Source: Saprospiraceae bacterium
Lineage (GTDB): Bacteria > Bacteroidota > Bacteroidia > Chitinophagales > Saprospiraceae
Assembly: GCA_029252685.1 (NCBI GenBank)
Contig: JAQXAY010000030.1
Span: forward strand, 1 to 37,962
Reading direction: 5' to 3'
Length of the DNA stretch: 37,962 nucleotides
In this document: piece by piece, positions 1,179 through 14,030 of the stretch
Numbering within the stretch: position 1 is the stretch's first letter
Layout of the letters: the number at the start of each line of letters is the position of its first letter
Translations under genes and position numbers: made by a program
The notes under the pieces: model-generated
What the model was told of the DNA's origin: nothing
The model's database searches: none
What the model saw: the letters and a program-made list of their open reading frames with translations, nothing else

Positions 1179-1943
1179 TCATATTTTAAAAATTCTTGAA
1201 GCATTTTCGCTGGTAATCCTTGCAAGCTCTTCTAATGGAACTTGCTTAATATCAGCCAACTTCTGAGCAATATAGGCAATAAAGGCAGATTCATTTCGCT
1301 TTCCTCTTTTGGGAGTAGGTGATAAATAAGGAGAATCAGTTTCAAGAACAAGGTGCTTTAGAGGAATTTTTTCCAAAACTTCAGAAAGTCCACTTTTTTT
1401 AAAAGTAAGTACCCCTCCTATTCCAAGATTGAATCCAAGATCAATAATTTGCTTTGCTTCTTCGTAGCTCCCACCAAAACAATGAAATATTCCTCTGGAC
1501 CTCCCTGAGCCGTAATCTTTCAAAACATCAATCAATAGCTGAGTGGTCTCTCTAGAATGAATTATAATTGGAATATCCAGTTTTTCAGCCCATTCAACTT
1601 GCATAAGGAATGCCGCCTCCTGTTCTTTCTTGTATGTCTTATCCCAATACAAATCCATACCAATCTCTCCAATAGCAACAAAAGAACGTTTATCTAACTC
1701 GGATTTGATTTGTTCCAGGACTTGCTTGTAGTCCGCAGCAACTGAACAGGGATGCAAACCCATCATAGGGTGCATTTGCCCTGGATAAGCCGCTTCCAAA
1801 GCATACATCCCATCTATTGAATCCAAGTCTATATTGGGGAGAAAAAAATGCTCTACGCCCACATCCAATGCCCGTTGAATCATCTCTGTTCTATCTTCTT
1901 CAAATTGATTGGCATATAAATGCGTATGTGTATCGATCAACAT
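1179..1943 (-). CDS. tatD: TatD-family metal-dependent hydrolase (DNase)
   Basis: This 254-residue protein has the usual TatD length and all its metal ligands: H6 and H8 in DTHTH, E93 in GEIGMD, H129 in IIIHSRE, H154 in FHCFGG, and D203 in LETDSPYLSP. The family forms a TIM barrel with a two-metal centre. E. coli TatD is a 3'-5' exonuclease acting on single-stranded DNA and RNA, implicated in DNA repair and RNA turnover, and is cytosolic. The gene stands alone on the minus strand. It is divergent from the RNase H gene across a 99-nt spacer that carries a good Bacteroidota promoter for tatD. Which member of the TatD/YcfH/YjjV set it corresponds to is not certain. Confidence 0.93.
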   Translation of the reverse strand: MLIDTHTHLYANQFEEDRTEMIQRALDVGVEHFFLPNIDLDSIDGMYALEAAYPGQMHPMMGLHPCSVAADYKQVLEQIKSELDKRSFVAIGEIGMDLYWDKTYKKEQEAAFLMQVEWAEKLDIPIIIHSRETTQLLIDVLKDYGSGRSRGIFHCFGGSYEEAKQIIDLGFNLGIGGVLTFKKSGLSEVLEKIPLKHLVLETDSPYLSPTPKRGKRNESAFIAYIAQKLADIKQVPLEELARITSENASRIFKI

Positions 1944-1977
1944 ATTTTATATTTTTAAGCACTTTGCTTTGTTGGCA

Positions 1978-2010
1978 CAAAAATATTCACAATTTTGTTG
2001 TTTATTCAAA
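1978..2010 (-). promoter_or_regulatory. Bacteroidota-type promoter of tatD
   Basis: On the minus strand, TTTG (2007-2010) is followed after 21 nt by TATTTTTG (1978-1985). This matches the Bacteroidota -33 TTG / -7 TAnnTTTG consensus. It lies 35 nt upstream of the tatD ATG, in the spacer shared with the divergent RNase H gene. Confidence 0.6.
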
Positions 2011-2042
2011 AGAAGAGGAAATAAAATATCATAAACTTATAA

Positions 2043-2663
2043 ATGGCTAAAAAACAAAAGTATTACGTTGTTTGGGTAGGTGCGAAACCTGGTATTTACA
2101 ATTCTTGGCCTGACTGTCAAAAACAAGTTGCTGGCTTTCCTAAAGCCCGGTATAAATCCTTTGAATCTAAGCTGGAAGCAGAACTTGCTCTAAAAAAAGG
2201 CTATAGTATCTCCTCCAAATCTTCAAAACAAAAATCATCGACATCAAATCCTCGGTCCAATATAAATTACATAACTATATCAGTAGATGCAGCTTGCAGC
2301 GGTAATCCTGGAAAAATGGAATATCAAGGAGTGGACACCAAATCCGGCAAACAATATTTTCATTTTGCTTCAAAACTTGGCACCAACAACATTGGTGAGT
2401 TTCTTGCTATAGTCCATGGACTATCGTTTTTAAAGAAACAAAACTCTAAACGAGCGATCTATACGGACTCAAAAAGTGCAATGAGTTGGGTTAGAAACAA
2501 AAAATGTAAAACAACACTTGAACGAAATACACAGACTGAAGAGTTATATAAATTGATCGAGCGTGCAGAAATTTGGCTCAAGCAAAATACTTACAACACA
2601 GAAATATTAAAATGGGACACAAAATCTTGGGGAGAGATACCTGCTGATTTTGGCCGGAAATAA
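2043..2663 (+). CDS. Ribonuclease H with N-terminal viroplasmin domain
   Basis: The 206-residue protein has two parts. Residues 1-50 match the caulimovirus viroplasmin / RNase H1 N-terminal domain (KYYVVWVGAKPGIYNSW, then FPKARYKSF), which binds RNA-DNA hybrids. After a Ser/Lys-rich linker (55-72) comes a type 1 RNase H fold. Its catalytic carboxylates are visible: D82 (VDAACSGNPG), E119 (NNIGEFLAI), D142 (YTDSKSA) and D202 (PADFGRK). It should cut the RNA strand of RNA-DNA hybrids (primer and R-loop removal). The gene ends 6 nt before the next gene on the same strand, so the two are probably co-transcribed. Confidence 0.9.
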   Translation: MAKKQKYYVVWVGAKPGIYNSWPDCQKQVAGFPKARYKSFESKLEAELALKKGYSISSKSSKQKSSTSNPRSNINYITISVDAACSGNPGKMEYQGVDTKSGKQYFHFASKLGTNNIGEFLAIVHGLSFLKKQNSKRAIYTDSKSAMSWVRNKKCKTTLERNTQTEELYKLIERAEIWLKQNTYNTEILKWDTKSWGEIPADFGRK

Positions 2664-2669
2664 TAAAAT

Positions 2670-3752
2670 ATGCTAGAAAGTTGGACATCAGTGGTTTCTA
2701 AAAAAATCTTGGAAAGATCCTATTCGGACTTCAGTTTAAAACAAAATATTTCAATCTTCCAAAAGCCAAAATTCAAGCTCAAGAAAGAACGTATTGCACT
2801 GATTGGCTGCAATGATGGTCTACTAGATGCCGTACGTCCAATCCTATATGCTTTTGCTGGCAATTTTGGTGAAAACAATATCGCAGATTTAGGAAACCTT
2901 AAAAACCTAGACGCAGATCACAACCCTCAATTAATGCAGGATCTGGTAGATGCAGGAATAACTCCTATAGTGGTATCTGCAACAGCGAGTCAACTGCATT
3001 CTCACCTTGTCTCTTCAATAAAGAACAAGAAAAAAATACATTGTAGCCTTATCGACGAGACTGTCCCTACTAAAGCGCAAGGGCCAATAGATCAACGATT
3101 ATTATTCCCAATAGCTACAAATAAAATACAATGGCCCAATCAGTTCAAGATACTAGGGATTCAAAAGCATCAAGTAGCCGCAAAACAAATACAAGAAGCG
3201 GAAAAAAACAATCTACGCTTATTTAGACTAGGCGGTCTAAAAACGGATCTTACGATGGCAGAACCTCTCTTAAGAGATACGAATGTCCTAGGGTTCAATG
3301 GTAGGGTTCTAAAATCCAGTGAAACACAAGACAAAGAAAATCACTCACCATCGGGTCTAAGCATTGATCAGGCCTGTCAGCTAATGCGCTATGCGGGCAT
3401 CAATGAGCAAATGCAATTTGTAAATATTTATGGATTCGATGATAGGTTTGCTCCAAACCCTACAACCGCTCATGCAGTAGCTCAATTAATTTGGTATTTC
3501 CTAGACGGTTTCTTTGATCAAAAAGGAGATTATCCAGTTGATAAGCGAAAATTGAAGTCATATGTAGTAGATCTCAAATACGATAACCTTAATATTAGTT
3601 TCTGGAAATCAAAAAAGTCAGGTAGATGGTGGGTTGAAGTACCAAGAACTAAAGGGAAGTCAGTACTTATGCCATGTAGTCAAAAGGAATATGAAAGTTG
3701 TGCAGCAGGAATTCTGAGCGACAACCTTGTAGAGTTGCTAGAGTTATTCTAA
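2670..3752 (+). CDS. Degenerate arginase/formimidoylglutamase-family protein
   Basis: The 360-residue protein resembles the Bacteroidota arginase/formimidoylglutamase-like family. The recognisable parts are a C-terminal half with PSGLSIDQACQLMRYAG (compare the PGGLS...ALMRYAG region of ureohydrolases), followed by NIYGFDDRFAPNPTTAHAVA at about 275-294. The metal-binding motifs of active enzymes (GGDHS, DAHxD, SxDxD) are not there: the GGDHS position reads SATASQLH and the SxDxD region reads GFNGRV. It is therefore unlikely to hydrolyse arginine or formimidoylglutamate. It probably has a structural or binding role that is unknown. It follows the RNase H gene by 6 nt, and its TAA abuts the murF stop codon with no gap. 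Family membership is inferred from motifs read by eye. Confidence 0.6.
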   Translation: MLESWTSVVSKKILERSYSDFSLKQNISIFQKPKFKLKKERIALIGCNDGLLDAVRPILYAFAGNFGENNIADLGNLKNLDADHNPQLMQDLVDAGITPIVVSATASQLHSHLVSSIKNKKKIHCSLIDETVPTKAQGPIDQRLLFPIATNKIQWPNQFKILGIQKHQVAAKQIQEAEKNNLRLFRLGGLKTDLTMAEPLLRDTNVLGFNGRVLKSSETQDKENHSPSGLSIDQACQLMRYAGINEQMQFVNIYGFDDRFAPNPTTAHAVAQLIWYFLDGFFDQKGDYPVDKRKLKSYVVDLKYDNLNISFWKSKKSGRWWVEVPRTKGKSVLMPCSQKEYESCAAGILSDNLVELLELF

Positions 3753-6795: not shown

Positions 6796-7812
6796 TTATC
6801 GGAATAATTGCAAACAATCAATCGAATTGTATTTTTTTGCTCTACTTTTAAAATAATCACTTTGATCAAACCTAAAAGAAACAGCAATTTCGTGGGCACC
6901 TCCGCTTGAGTATGCCTGTAAAGCCGACACTGTAAAGTCATAAGAATAGCCAAGTTTAAAGATTCCACTTTGCACTCCTACCATCAAAACAGCGGCGTCC
7001 GCATTCGTCCAAGAGTACCTGTACCAGGCTCCTCCGAAGACAAATGATGAACTAATATAAGCACCAGCATTCACTTGACCAAAATCTCCTTGCTTTACTA
7101 TCAGAACATTTGGTGAAATAAACGCGGTTGAATTTCTTTTATTGCCTCTGTTAAGATCGATTTGTGTCCCAAATTGCATAGAAACCATCAATGGCACACC
7201 ATTACTTAATCGATTTTCGTTGAGGAGAATAATCCCGTCATTCCCACGGTTCATATGTCGTAAAGACAAGCCTGCGTATACAGCCTTAGAGGCAAATAAG
7301 ATTCCAGAAGAAATATCAAAATAGTTAGCTTGCAAACTTTCAGGGCGTGCTTCCTCAGAAAAACTTTGGTCGGATACATCTCCTGTGATTGGATCAATTT
7401 GGTCCAAGAAAACATATTTATCCCAATCGTAGAATTTCTGTCCAAAGCCCAATTCTGTACCAAAACGAACCGTCCAATCGTTTCGCATATTCAATTGATA
7501 AGAATAAAGCCCTTTAATCTCAGAAGTTGAAATAAACCCTTCCCCTTGAATATCAGATAATACAAATAAGCCTAGACCACTTTTGGCACTTCTGAAATAA
7601 GTATCAAAACTAGCTGCATAAGTTTGATAAGCATCAAATGATGGCCACTGAAACCTGCTTTGAAGATTAATCCTAGGAGCACCAACACTACCAGTGAAGG
7701 CAGGATTGAGTAAAGTCGGGGACGCATAAAACTGCGAAAAAACAGGATCTTGTGCTTTTGCAGTAGAACAAAAAACTAGGATTAAAACAAACGAGAGTAT
7801 AGAACGAATCAT
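6796..7812 (-). CDS. Type IX secretion membrane protein, PorP/SprF family
   Basis: This is an outer-membrane beta-barrel of the PorP/SprF family. I start it at the ATG at 7810-7812, giving 338 residues and a clean signal peptide (MIRSILSFVLILVFCSTAKAQ, about residues 1-20). An upstream in-frame ATG at 7839 would add nine residues that spoil the signal peptide. After the signal come the family hallmark DPVFSQFYASPTLLNPAFTG, then alternating strands such as SGLGLFVLSDIQGEG, and a terminal GGAHEIAVSFRF. About 20 basic and hydrophilic residues follow the last strand, a short unusual tail. PorP/SprF proteins pair with secreted or surface partners and with the PorK/N ring. This copy lies away from a porKLMN cluster and upstream of gldJ on the same strand. 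Confidence 0.88.
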   Translation of the reverse strand: MIRSILSFVLILVFCSTAKAQDPVFSQFYASPTLLNPAFTGSVGAPRINLQSRFQWPSFDAYQTYAASFDTYFRSAKSGLGLFVLSDIQGEGFISTSEIKGLYSYQLNMRNDWTVRFGTELGFGQKFYDWDKYVFLDQIDPITGDVSDQSFSEEARPESLQANYFDISSGILFASKAVYAGLSLRHMNRGNDGIILLNENRLSNGVPLMVSMQFGTQIDLNRGNKRNSTAFISPNVLIVKQGDFGQVNAGAYISSSFVFGGAWYRYSWTNADAAVLMVGVQSGIFKLGYSYDFTVSALQAYSSGGAHEIAVSFRFDQSDYFKSRAKKYNSIDCLQLFR

Positions 7813-8022
7813 AGTATGCCTATATTTGTGAATATTCAAGTCAGATAACTTGATCGGTTAATATATAAATGCAAATTAATAAAACACAGTACTCGACAAT
7901 CTAATTTTAATATTTGCCCATTAAGAGCATTCGGTTTGTTAAAATTGGAATTCAAAAACTTTACCTATTGTACATGCGTTTTGGATTCATCATACCACTA
8001 ACACTATACCTAAAGTTTGATT

Positions 8023-11000
8023 ATGCATAAGGTTTATATAAAACTATTTTTTTCATTCCTTTTTTGCCTTTCCTTTCAAGTAAACCATCTTAAAGCTCAA
8101 GAAGTTTTAAATGAGGCTCTTAGCATTAGCTGGGAAAAGAAGGACTTAGAACTTGACGAATCAGGAACTATGCTTGAAAATGTATATTCTTTTGAAAATG
8201 GATGTAGAGAACCTATGCTAATCCAAATACCCTATCTCAACTACACCTTTCAAGTTCAGGGTCCTGGAAAAATCACTGCGTATATCACTGAAAATGAGAC
8301 TCAGGTTCTAGATATTGACCTCAAAGAAAACCTTAATAAACTAGATAATGATTTTATAATCAATAAATCCATTGAAAAAAATGGCGATAAATATTTTGCA
8401 CGGATAAGTATATTGCCAGCAAAATTAAATGGAACTTCAATCATTGGATTAGCAAGTGGGACATTAAAGGCAAGCTTTACACCAGGAGTAGCTGAAATGC
8501 GCAGAGGTCCCACAACAATCGATTCAAAATTAGCCAGTGGAACCTATCACAAGATTTCCGTAGCTAAATCCGGCATATTCAAAATAAGTGCAGAATTCCT
8601 TCAAACTGAATTAAATCTAGACCTCACTACAATTGATCCTAAAAAAATAAAAATTTATGGTCACGGAGGAGGACGCCTACCTCTTCGAGCAGGAGAATAT
8701 ACTAAAGAAGACTTGCCCGAAATCCCAATCTGGATTCCAGGTGAATCAGATAATATTTTTGATAGCAATGATAACATTTACTTCTATGCGGAAGGTCCTA
8801 ACTCATGGAGATACGACGAAGACGATATGGAGTTACAATTTGAAATGAATACCTATTCAAATAAAAATTACTATTTCATTCAATTTGATGACTCTACAAA
8901 TGGTCTAAGAATTAATATTGATGGTGCAGTCGATGGAGAAACAGATATCACTTCATATGATGTAGTTTCAAGATTAGAATCCGACCAGTACAACATATTA
9001 GATTATGTAAGTCTAAATCAGGGTTCTGGACAAGATTGGTTCGGCGATTTATTCAAAAACCTTAGAACAGCTAGTTATTTATTTAGCATACCAAATCTTG
9101 TATTAGCTGATTCCATATAGCTTGAAGCCCGATTTGCATCTCGAGCATCAACGAGTAATACAACTTTTGAACTCAGGACGAATGGCCAAACAGCAAGTAC
9201 TGGAACCTTTTCATCCACCACACTAAGTAATTCAAATTCATCTGGTGCCAAGGCTAAAACACTTCAGGAAAAATTCCTAGTAACCGGTAGTAATTTCACG
9301 GTTGAGGTAAATTATCCTGAGGTTGCAAATAGCACTGGTTGGTTAGACTATATTGAGGCACGAGGAAAAGCCAATCTAACAAAAGGAAATGGCCAACTTA
9401 CTTTTCAATCCTATAAATCATTGGATTACAGCGCAGTAAACTATAGAATCAATTCCTCAGAACCTTTGTTAGTATGGGATATTTCAAACCCCTGCTTACC
9501 AAGTAATAAAAGTATTGATGGTTCAGGTTCAACCAAGACATTTGGATCACAATCAGATGTATTCAAGCGTTTTATTGCATTTAACACAAGTGAGGCCTAT
9601 TCAGATATAAGCTATGCTGGAATAGTCGCCAATCAGAATCTGCACGGTATGCAGCCAACTGATATGATTATCATAAGCCCTGAGGTATTTATGAGTCAAG
9701 CAAACCGATTGGCTGAGCACCGATCGAACAATGATGACCTTAGCATAAGCATTGTCCAACCTGCCCATATTTTCAATGAGTTTTCTTCTGGTAAACCTGA
9801 TGCCGCTGCCATTAGAAATTTCCTGAAACATATTTATGAAAAGAATCCAGCAAAATTAAAATATGTCCTTTTACTTGGTGACGGGTCATTTGACAACAGA
9901 AACATACTTGGACTTGGTAACAACTATATTATCACCTACGAAACGGAACAGTCTCTAGCGCCAATTTATGCCTATCCTTCTGATGATTACTTTGGATTAA
10001 TTGATGATGATGAGGGTATAATTACACAGAATAGTTTAATGAATATTGCCATAGGACGACTCCCTGTTAAAAATACAGCAGAAGCTTCTGCTGTAGTGAA
10101 TAAAATCATCCGATATGATGATAAACTTGTTACAGAGGGAGATTGGAAAAACTGGGCAGTTTTTGTTGGAGATGATGAGGATTCATCAAAACATTCAAAA
10201 GATTCGGACAAGCTTGCCAAACAAACAGCAGAGAAATTCCCATGGATCAATCAAGACAAAATCTATATTGATGCCTTTGAACAAGAGTCTACCTCTTTTG
10301 GAACAAGAGTTCCAGGCGCTAGGGAGGCAATAACCAATAGTCTATTCAAAGGAGCTTTGAGTGTAACATACTTAGGGCATGGTGGCTCTATTGGCTGGGC
10401 ACAGGAGCGAATCCTTCAAATGCAAGATATTATATCCTTCAATAACACAAATAAACTCCCTGTATTCCTAACTGCGACTTGCTCTTTCGCGGGATATGAT
10501 GATCCAAAATTTACTTCTGGCGGAGAGGAAACTATTTTGAATCCAAATGGAGGAGCTATTTCTATGTTTACAACTGTTCGAGCAGTACTCGCTAATGACA
10601 ATTATGACTTATCAAGAGCGATCGTTGATACACTTTACACGAATTCCCCAAGTGGATCTATGCGATTTGGAGATGCAATGAATGCCGCAAAAAACAATCC
10701 ATCAATAAGTGCTAGTAATCATAGGAAGTTCACGCTTTTGGGTGATCCAAGCCAAAAGATATCAATCCCAAGCTATGAGGTGTTGACTACAGAGATAAAC
10801 GGAAATGATGTAGCTCAAAATGAAATAGATACCATCTCATCACTAGAACTAGTGCAAGTTAAAGGTAAGATATTAGATTTCGATGGTTCTGATCTTAACA
10901 CCTTCAATGGAAAATTATACATCACAGTATTTGATAAAAAAGTAACTAACCAAACGCTTGGACAAGATTCAGGCTCTCCCATTTTCAATTATGACATTCA

Positions 11001-11883
11001 AAAGAATATCATTTTTAAAGGTTTAAGCAGTGTTATTGATGGTCAGTTTCAATTTGAATTCGTTGTACCAAAAGATATTTCGTTTGAATTTGGAAATGGA
11101 AAGATCAGCTATTATGCCATCGAAAGCAATGGGAATAAGGAGGCTAAAGGAAGTACAGAGAATATTATAATTGGAGGGTCGTCTGATAATGCAATTGTCG
11201 ATGATCAAGGGCCAGAGGTAGAAGTGTACATGAATAATGAGAACTTCGTATTTGGTGGTATAACCAGTTCCAACCCAATTTTATATGTCAAGTTAAAAGA
11301 TGACAATGGCATCAACATAGTTGGGAACAGCATTGGTCACGATCTAACAGGAACACTTGACGAAAACACGCAGAACTCATTCTTACTCAACGAATATTAT
11401 CAATCAGAACTTGATAACTATAAAAGTGGTATCATCCGTTACCCACTTTCTGATGTTAGTGAGGGAAGACATCAAGTCAAGGTCAAAGCTTGGGATATTG
11501 CAAATAACTCTAGCGAAGGCTACACAGAATTTGTAGTAAGCTCATCTGGTGCTATAGCATTGCAGCAAGTTTTAAACTACCCAAATCCTTTCATCAACAG
11601 CACCTGTTTTCAGTTTGAGCACAATATGGAAGGTCAGAACTTGGATATTCAAATTCAGATATTCAGTATATCTGGCAGGTTGGTTAAAACAATAGAAACT
11701 CAAATATTATCTAACGGAAGTCGTTTAGGATTAGGAGATTGTATACAATGGGATGGTAGAGATGATTTTGGCTCTGACTTGGCTAAGGGCGTTTATGTTT
11801 ACAAAATTAAAGCGCAGACTCAAAGTGCATCAGGCCTTATAAGTGGCGAAAGTGCATTTGAGAAATTAGTTATTCTAAAATAA
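8023..11883 (+). pseudogene. porU: Type IX secretion sortase PorU with an internal TAG stop
   Basis: PorU is the cell-surface C25 (gingipain-like) transpeptidase that removes the C-terminal signal of type IX cargo and attaches the cargo to A-LPS. I start it at the ATG at 8023; a TTG six bases earlier is less likely. There is a signal peptide (about 1-26, ending KAQ). The frame then runs without a shift to the TAA at 11881-11883, 1286 codons, except for one TAG at 9118-9120 (codon 366). The 300 bases after the TAG are open in the same frame and read as PorU sequence (LEARFASRAS, GWLDYIEARGKANL). The C25 catalytic pair is present: His786 in YLGHGG and Cys820 in TATCSF. The C-terminus has an NYPNPF...VYKIKA sorting/FlgD-like domain. 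The TAG could be a sequencing error, a real nonsense mutation, or suppressed in vivo. Confidence 0.85.
9118..9120 (+). other. In-frame amber codon inside porU
   Basis: The codons around it read GAT TCC ATA TAG CTT GAA GCC CGA, with coding-quality sequence on both sides in the same frame. One base change (for example TAT, TAC, AAG or CAG to TAG) explains it. infA, map, the acetyltransferase gene and the polyprenyl synthase gene in this window end with TAG, so TAG is a working stop here. Confidence 0.95.
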
Positions 11884-11921
11884 TCCTTTGCCGAAAGACC
11901 CCAAGCAGACAATTACAAAAG

Positions 11922-11970: not shown

Positions 11971-12052
11971 TATTTCCTTAGACCGATTGAAAATATAAGG
12001 GCTTTACCCTATTTATTGGATCAATTACTAATTTATTATGGTGACAAGACAT

Positions 12053-12060
12053 TATATTTG
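12053..12060 (+). promoter_or_regulatory. Possible porV promoter (-7 element)
   Basis: TATATTTG matches the Bacteroidota TAnnTTTG element 21 nt before the porV ATG. No TTG is visible at the expected -33 spacing, so this is a weaker call than the tatD and rpsL promoters. Confidence 0.35.
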
Positions 12061-12081
12061 CACCAAATCAAGCATGACTAC

Positions 12082-13290
12082 ATGAAAAAGTATTTTTACG
12101 GAGCATTATTTACTTTGCTCCTTATAACATTATCTACTACAGAATCATCTGCACAGTGCATTCAGAACTCAAATGGCGATTGGGTACTTCCTGGATCAGG
12201 AGAACCTTGTCCAAATGCTATTATCACAGCAGTTCCATTCCTAAGAATTTCAGCAGATGCAAGAGCATCCGGTCTAGGTGATGCAGGTATTGCATTGAGT
12301 GCTGATGCAAACAGTCTAGGTTTCAATGACTCCAAGTTAGTGTTTGCAGAAGAGGATATGGGAGTTAGTATGTCCTATACGCCATGGTTCCGAAACATCA
12401 ATATTACGGATATGTATATAGCATATCTCTCCGGTTATAAAAAAATAGATAACCTTCAAGCTTTTGGCGGAAGTATCCGATTCTTCTCCTTTGGTAATAT
12501 TATTTTCACGGATGAAAATGGTCAACAAGTAGGAGAAGGAAATCCACAGGAAGCGGAAATAAAGCTAGCCTATGCTAGAAAGTTGGGAGACAAGTTGGGT
12601 TTTGGTATCGGAGGTAAATTTATTTACTCTGATCTTGCATCTAACCAGGTTGTTGCAGGACAAACGATAAGCGCTGGACTTGCAGGTGCTGTTGATATTT
12701 CGGCAACCTATATGGATGACATAGAAATCGGTAATACTGATGCAGAACTAACCGTTGCCCTATCAGCAACGAATATAGGTTCAAAGATCACCTATCTAAA
12801 TGCAGCAAATAATGCCAAGGATTATTTACCTACAAATTTGGGACTTGGAGCTGCATTAAATTTTAAAATTGATGAATTCAACAAAGTAGCACTTGTTGCC
12901 GATTTCAATAAATTAATGGTTCCGACGACATGTTTTGGACCGGACTGTGACCAAGACGGAAATGGAATTTCTGATCACTTAGAACTAAATCCAATTGCAG
13001 CAATGTTCTCTAGCTTTGGAGATGCACCAAATGGCTTTAGTGAAGAAATTGCAGAAATTCAAGTTTCGACGGGTGTGGAATATTGGTATAATAACCAATT
13101 TGCGCTGAGAGGTGGTTATTTCCATGAAAGTGCAACCAAAGGAAACAGAAGGTTTGCTACAATCGGTACAGGATTAAAATACAATGTTTTTGAAATCAAC
13201 TTATCCTATTTGATTTCTATAAACCAACAAAATAATCCTCTAGCCAATACAATGCGTTTTGCTCTTATCTTCAACTTTGGAGAAAATTAA
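12082..13290 (+). CDS. porV: Type IX secretion outer membrane protein PorV (LptO)
   Basis: PorV is an outer-membrane beta-barrel that takes cargo from the SprA translocon and delivers it to PorU. I start it at the ATG at 12082-12084, giving 402 residues, the usual PorV length. A TTG-initiated extension upstream is not protein-like. Residues 1-25 form a signal peptide ending ESSAQ. The mature part has the PorV/FadL-like signature ISADARASGLGDAGIALS early on, followed by repeated amphipathic strands and a terminal strand ending MRFALIFNFGEN. It follows porU by about 200 nt on the same strand, which supports the pairing of the two attachment-complex partners. Expression may come from its own -7 element or from porU read-through. 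Confidence 0.93.
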   Translation: MKKYFYGALFTLLLITLSTTESSAQCIQNSNGDWVLPGSGEPCPNAIITAVPFLRISADARASGLGDAGIALSADANSLGFNDSKLVFAEEDMGVSMSYTPWFRNINITDMYIAYLSGYKKIDNLQAFGGSIRFFSFGNIIFTDENGQQVGEGNPQEAEIKLAYARKLGDKLGFGIGGKFIYSDLASNQVVAGQTISAGLAGAVDISATYMDDIEIGNTDAELTVALSATNIGSKITYLNAANNAKDYLPTNLGLGAALNFKIDEFNKVALVADFNKLMVPTTCFGPDCDQDGNGISDHLELNPIAAMFSSFGDAPNGFSEEIAEIQVSTGVEYWYNNQFALRGGYFHESATKGNRRFATIGTGLKYNVFEINLSYLISINQQNNPLANTMRFALIFNFGEN

Positions 13291-13481: not shown

Positions 13482-14030
13482 CTAAGCGTCCTTTTCTTCT
13501 TCTTTAGTATCTTCTGTTGCAGTATCTTCTGCTGCAGTTTCTTCTGCTGCAGTTTCTTCGTTTACTGTTTCAGTAGTAGCAGTTGTCTCGGCTGTAGCTG
13601 TAGAATCAGACTTCTTCGCCTTTGAACGACGACGACGACTTGGCTTCTTAGCATCTTTAAGGTTGTAAACTTCATTGAAATCAACAAACTCAATCATAGC
13701 CATTTCTGCTCCATCAGAACGACGGAATCCAGTTTTGATTACACGAACGTAACCACCAGGTCTGTCCCCTATCTTATCAGCAACAGTGCTAAACAATTCT
13801 TTAACAGCCTCTTTATTCTGAAGGTATGAGAACACAACACGACGAGAGTGCATTGTATTTACTTTACCTTTAGTAACGATAGGCTCAATAAACTTTCTAA
13901 GTGCCTTAGCCTTAGCAAGTGTAGTTTCGATACGCTTGTGCTCTATTAGAGAGATTCCAAGGTTCCTTAAAAGCGCTTTTCTGTGCGCAGTTTTTCTACC
14001 TAAGTGGTTGAATTTCTTACCGTGACGCAT
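13482..14030 (-). CDS. rplQ: 50S ribosomal protein L17 with extended tail
   Basis: Residues 1-123 are a standard L17 ([20 protein letters not shown] at the start, [19 protein letters not shown] near 99-117), a 50S protein near the tunnel exit. The protein is 182 residues, about 60 longer than the core. The tail has a basic patch (128-140, [10 protein letters not shown]) and then an acidic Ala/Glu/Thr stretch (141-182), partly encoded by a 15-bp tandem repeat. It is the last gene of the cluster, 95 nt after rpoA, and is followed by a terminator. Confidence 0.97.
13511..13555 (-). repeat. Three tandem copies of a 15-bp unit in the rplQ tail
   Basis: Units at 13511-13525, 13526-13540 and 13541-13555 differ at two positions in the first copy and are identical in the other two. 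Each encodes five residues of the ETAAE type, so unit gain or loss keeps the frame. Confidence 0.9.

Follow-up and report, generated by a model that had tools for sequence, protein, structure and literature searches.

PorU is the C-terminal signal peptidase and sortase of the type IX secretion system (T9SS), represented by the profile NF033707 and by 6za2 from P. gingivalis. In P. gingivalis it is the enzyme joining type A cargo to A-LPS (PMC10202324). In porU mutants of P. gingivalis the CTDs are kept on the cargo, and some of the cargo is found on the surface bound to PorV (PMC5562754), and type B CTD proteins are reportedly secreted without PorU (PMC9143113). The window analysed here, a stretch of 37,962 nucleotides, is contig 12 of a Saprospiraceae assembly of 3.44 Mb in 297 contigs that is about 96% complete. 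It carries a gene with the same domain order as the known PorU proteins, including the C25 His/Cys pair and the sorting domain, and with porV as its neighbour, but in contrast to known PorU this gene alone has an in-frame TAG in the N-terminal region, at a codon where the sister species have Gln. By descent the gene is porU, but its sequence as it stands does not code for a whole PorU.

The porU locus

The porU frame starts with an ATG at position 8023 and ends with the TAA at 11881–11883, the last sense base being 11880. Translation of 8023–11886 gives a single internal stop, TAG at codon 366 (Table 1), with no second stop and no frameshift, and the 920 codons that follow it (codons 367–1286) are open, which in random sequence of like composition has a chance of about 1e-27. 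By alignment the TAG is located upstream of the C25 domain, between residues 198 and 228 of 6za2. In the profile search the piece upstream of the TAG matches positions 2–183 of NF033707, and the downstream piece matches positions 191–1095 with 1037 bits and alone passes the cut-off of 420 bits. The two stretches adjoin, indicating that almost no PorU sequence is missing. The C25 domain (PF01364, 344 bits) and the C-terminal sorting domain (TIGR04183, 28.5 bits with a cut-off of 23) are both present, and the predicted His786 and Cys820 align with those of P. gingivalis PorU. A full-length match to the PorU profile, a C25 domain with its His/Cys pair and a sorting domain are all found, and what the gene lacks is one continuous frame for one exported protein, which is broken at codon 366.

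The initial annotation of this DNA, made from the letters alone, had described an unshifted porU frame with one TAG, PorU-type sequence continuing beyond it, and an intact His/Cys pair and sorting domain downstream, all of which agrees with the results above. It had also described the genes around porU as undamaged, and porV and the porP/sprF family gene do score above their cut-offs, and the frame of gldJ is unbroken with a score just under its cut-off (Table 1). The listed porV frame opens with a TTG, and its first in-frame ATG is found about 66 codons past the porU stop. Elsewhere in the window, positions 13482–14030 encode ribosomal protein L17, whose long C-terminal part matches the NCBIfam 'sunset domain variant' with 136 bits, below the cut-off of 280 bits, and positions 2670–3752 contain a frame of 360 residues without an NCBIfam match, ending one base before the end of murF on the opposite strand.

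Table 1. Features of the porU region, in positions of the window.
Feature	Position	Strand	Evidence
gldJ, unbroken frame of 499 codons	5161..6660	-	439.5 bits, cut-off 458.2 (just under)
porP/sprF family gene, intact	6796..7839	-	207 bits, above cut-off
porU 5' piece, codons 1-365: signal peptide and N-terminal region	8023..9117	+	NF033707 2-183; 6za2 residues 23-198
In-frame TAG, codon 366; Gln in G001 (CAG) and G002 (CAA)	9118..9120	+	translation, species alignment
porU 3' piece, codons 367-1286 and TAA: remaining N-terminal region, C25 peptidase, sorting domain	9121..11883	+	
Predicted catalytic His, codon 786, in YLGHGG	10378..10380	+	aligns with P. gingivalis PorU 6za2
Predicted catalytic Cys, codon 820, in TATCSF	10480..10482	+	aligns with P. 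gingivalis PorU 6za2
porV, intact	12016..13290	+	445 bits, above cut-off

Codon 366 in relatives and the age of the stop

The near relatives are Saprospiraceae metagenome assemblies, including two other species of the same genus (G001 and G002). Both have a sense codon at position 366, and from the CAG of G001 the TAG is one C-to-T step away. In about 36 more distant relatives the same column contains V, N, H, Q, F, E, D, R, T, L, K, Y, A, S and W, and no stop. No internal porU stop is found in any other genome in a comparison of 61 genomes, where the frame is continuous wherever a contig covers it; three TAA codons in the porU of G004 are a match overrun upstream of its signal peptide, and not internal stops. 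An order-wide survey likewise has no internal stop among the approximately 150 best PorU places, all of which score higher than the porU of the window.

A porU that had been dead for long would be expected to pile up changes downstream of the stop. In three-way columns, 68 residues after the stop are unique to this genome and 64 are unique to G001, and before the stop the corresponding numbers are 33 and 38. The downstream part of porU shows no relaxation or decay. The synonymous sites of porU are saturated in the species comparison, so that dN/dS is not computable. As no constraint is lost downstream, the TAG is either very young compared to the split from G001, or an error, or bypassed.

Termination at TAG

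RF1 is present and unbroken (502 bits), and TAG terminates 55 of the 347 frames that are 250 residues or longer in 759 kb of the genome, in line with the earlier view that TAG is a working stop here and speaks against recoding. No tRNA with a CUA anticodon is found among the 29 tRNAs from a search with RF00005, a set that is incomplete, with tRNA-Ala and tRNA-Ile missing, and none in the 30 of 54 loci scanned with an anticodon-plus-T-loop pattern, where only normal tRNA-Glu and tRNA-Cys are seen. The absent tRNA-Ala and tRNA-Ile were probably lost with an unbinned rRNA operon. One copy of tRNA-Glu is at an end of contig 51 and another at an end of contig 286, and the two are possibly one gene split over two contigs.

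In-frame stops within coding sequence were sought in the 759 kb with a dicodon-score scan, which recovers 51% of simulated nonsense codons and was used instead of an earlier scan with single-codon scores that missed the known porU stop. The porU gene is the only strong case, indicating that false stops are not general in the assembly. By eye, a riboflavin-synthase-like frame comes to its natural end at L144:4226–4228, and L138:17806–17808 belongs to a non-coding upstream frame, neither being an interrupted gene. Amber recoding of the whole genome is refuted by the unbroken RF1, the common use of TAG at the end of long frames, the lack of a CUA tRNA among the tRNAs and loci searched, and the lack of any other such gene in the 759 kb. 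A strong suppressor of general effect is improbable.

The type IX secretion system and the assembly

There is one porU in the assembly, and no second copy is found in it. SprA is intact, and about 113 places in the genome have a type A sorting domain above the cut-off, suggesting that the T9SS was used and selected until very recently, and that a loss of PorU should be costly. Contig 16 (L185:1–3738) is a perfect palindrome of 3,738 bp, the arms 1–1869 and 1870–3738 (1,869 bp each) showing 100% complementarity with no spacer. It is almost certainly an assembly artefact, and one T9SS cargo gene is therefore counted twice.

Explanations of the in-frame TAG

The initial annotation had listed a recent nonsense mutation, a base error and suppression as the options, and this was the right set. 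The weights that we give to these three are judgements and not computed values. At about even chances, and as the most likely reading, the TAG is a genuine nonsense allele of very recent origin that at least part of the population sampled carries, although its existence in cells is something that we infer. A one-base change would then have turned the Gln codon of the sole porU into TAG, translation would end at residue 365, the exported N-terminal stub would lack both the C25 sortase domain and the sorting signal, and type A cargo would go unprocessed. The Gln codons of the sister species, the single porU, the use of TAG as a real stop, the negative search for a CUA tRNA, the absence of decay and the lack of another strong interruption in the 759 kb all argue for such an allele. 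Against it are the retained SprA and sorting-domain genes, the lack of a second lesion in porU, and the fragmented metagenome assembly with at least one artefactual contig. The same points favour an error in the consensus or the assembly, or a base from a minor strain chosen by the assembler, the dominant strain having an intact porU: the assembly is from a metagenome, in 297 contigs of which one is a perfect palindrome, the change in porU is a single base with strong conservation on both sides, and a loss should be costly where SprA is intact and cargo abundant. This is a serious competitor that we hold to be somewhat short of an even chance, as false stops are uncommon in the assembly, with no other of like strength recovered by the dicodon scan at its power of 51%.

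Readthrough of the TAG by a near-cognate or unseen suppressor tRNA, often enough to give useful PorU, would fit the absence of decay downstream and the highly variable column at codon 366, which tolerates almost any residue so that any inserted amino acid would serve, and the tRNAs of the genome are incompletely recovered. It is nevertheless improbable, considering the intact RF1, the many true TAG stops, the tRNA searches and the lack of another gene with such a stop in the 759-kb sample, and also the plain sense codon in both sister species, which means that there is no conserved stop. That PorU is split, with each frame a working gene of its own, is hardly credible. The downstream frame does have internal starts, a TTG at 9421 and a first ATG 176 codons past the TAG, but a restarted product would have no signal peptide and could not get to the site of PorU action on the surface, and the frame of the relatives is continuous wherever a contig covers it. 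It is very doubtful, finally, that a real loss-of-function allele, or a low level of PorU from inefficient readthrough, makes this a non-anchoring variant that uses the anchored or released enzymes of its neighbours.

Consequences and comparison with known systems

If the nonsense allele is real, and if P. gingivalis is a guide to this Saprospiraceae bacterium, the processing of type A cargo and its anchoring to A-LPS would be expected to fail, but not all T9SS function or secretion. The initial annotation had concluded that such a strain could no longer anchor cargo; this stands for type A processing and A-LPS anchoring, but as a total loss it is overstated, considering the PorV-bound cargo of P. 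gingivalis mutants (PMC5562754) and the type B proteins (PMC9143113). A real allele would be a natural and recent porU null under a large T9SS cargo load, and a small natural experiment on unprocessed type A cargo. A one-base stop in a metagenome assembly without reads should, however, not be equated with a loss of the secretion function.

Like the known cases of amber recoding (pyrrolysine, TAG-to-Gln codes, suppressor tRNAs), porU has an in-frame TAG with conserved coding sequence after it. It differs from them in that RF1 is present, TAG is widely a stop rather than rare, no CUA tRNA is found, and there is one such gene found, with no in-frame TAG conserved in the relatives or in other genes. 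With ordinary nonsense pseudogenes and polymorphisms it shares a single substitution in an otherwise intact gene with no compensating feature; it differs from an ordinary nonsense pseudogene in having no visible decay, and a stop so recent that decay is invisible cannot be distinguished from an assembly error. As far as the sequence can tell, the TAG in porU is no new genetic trick; if real, it is an ordinary nonsense change.
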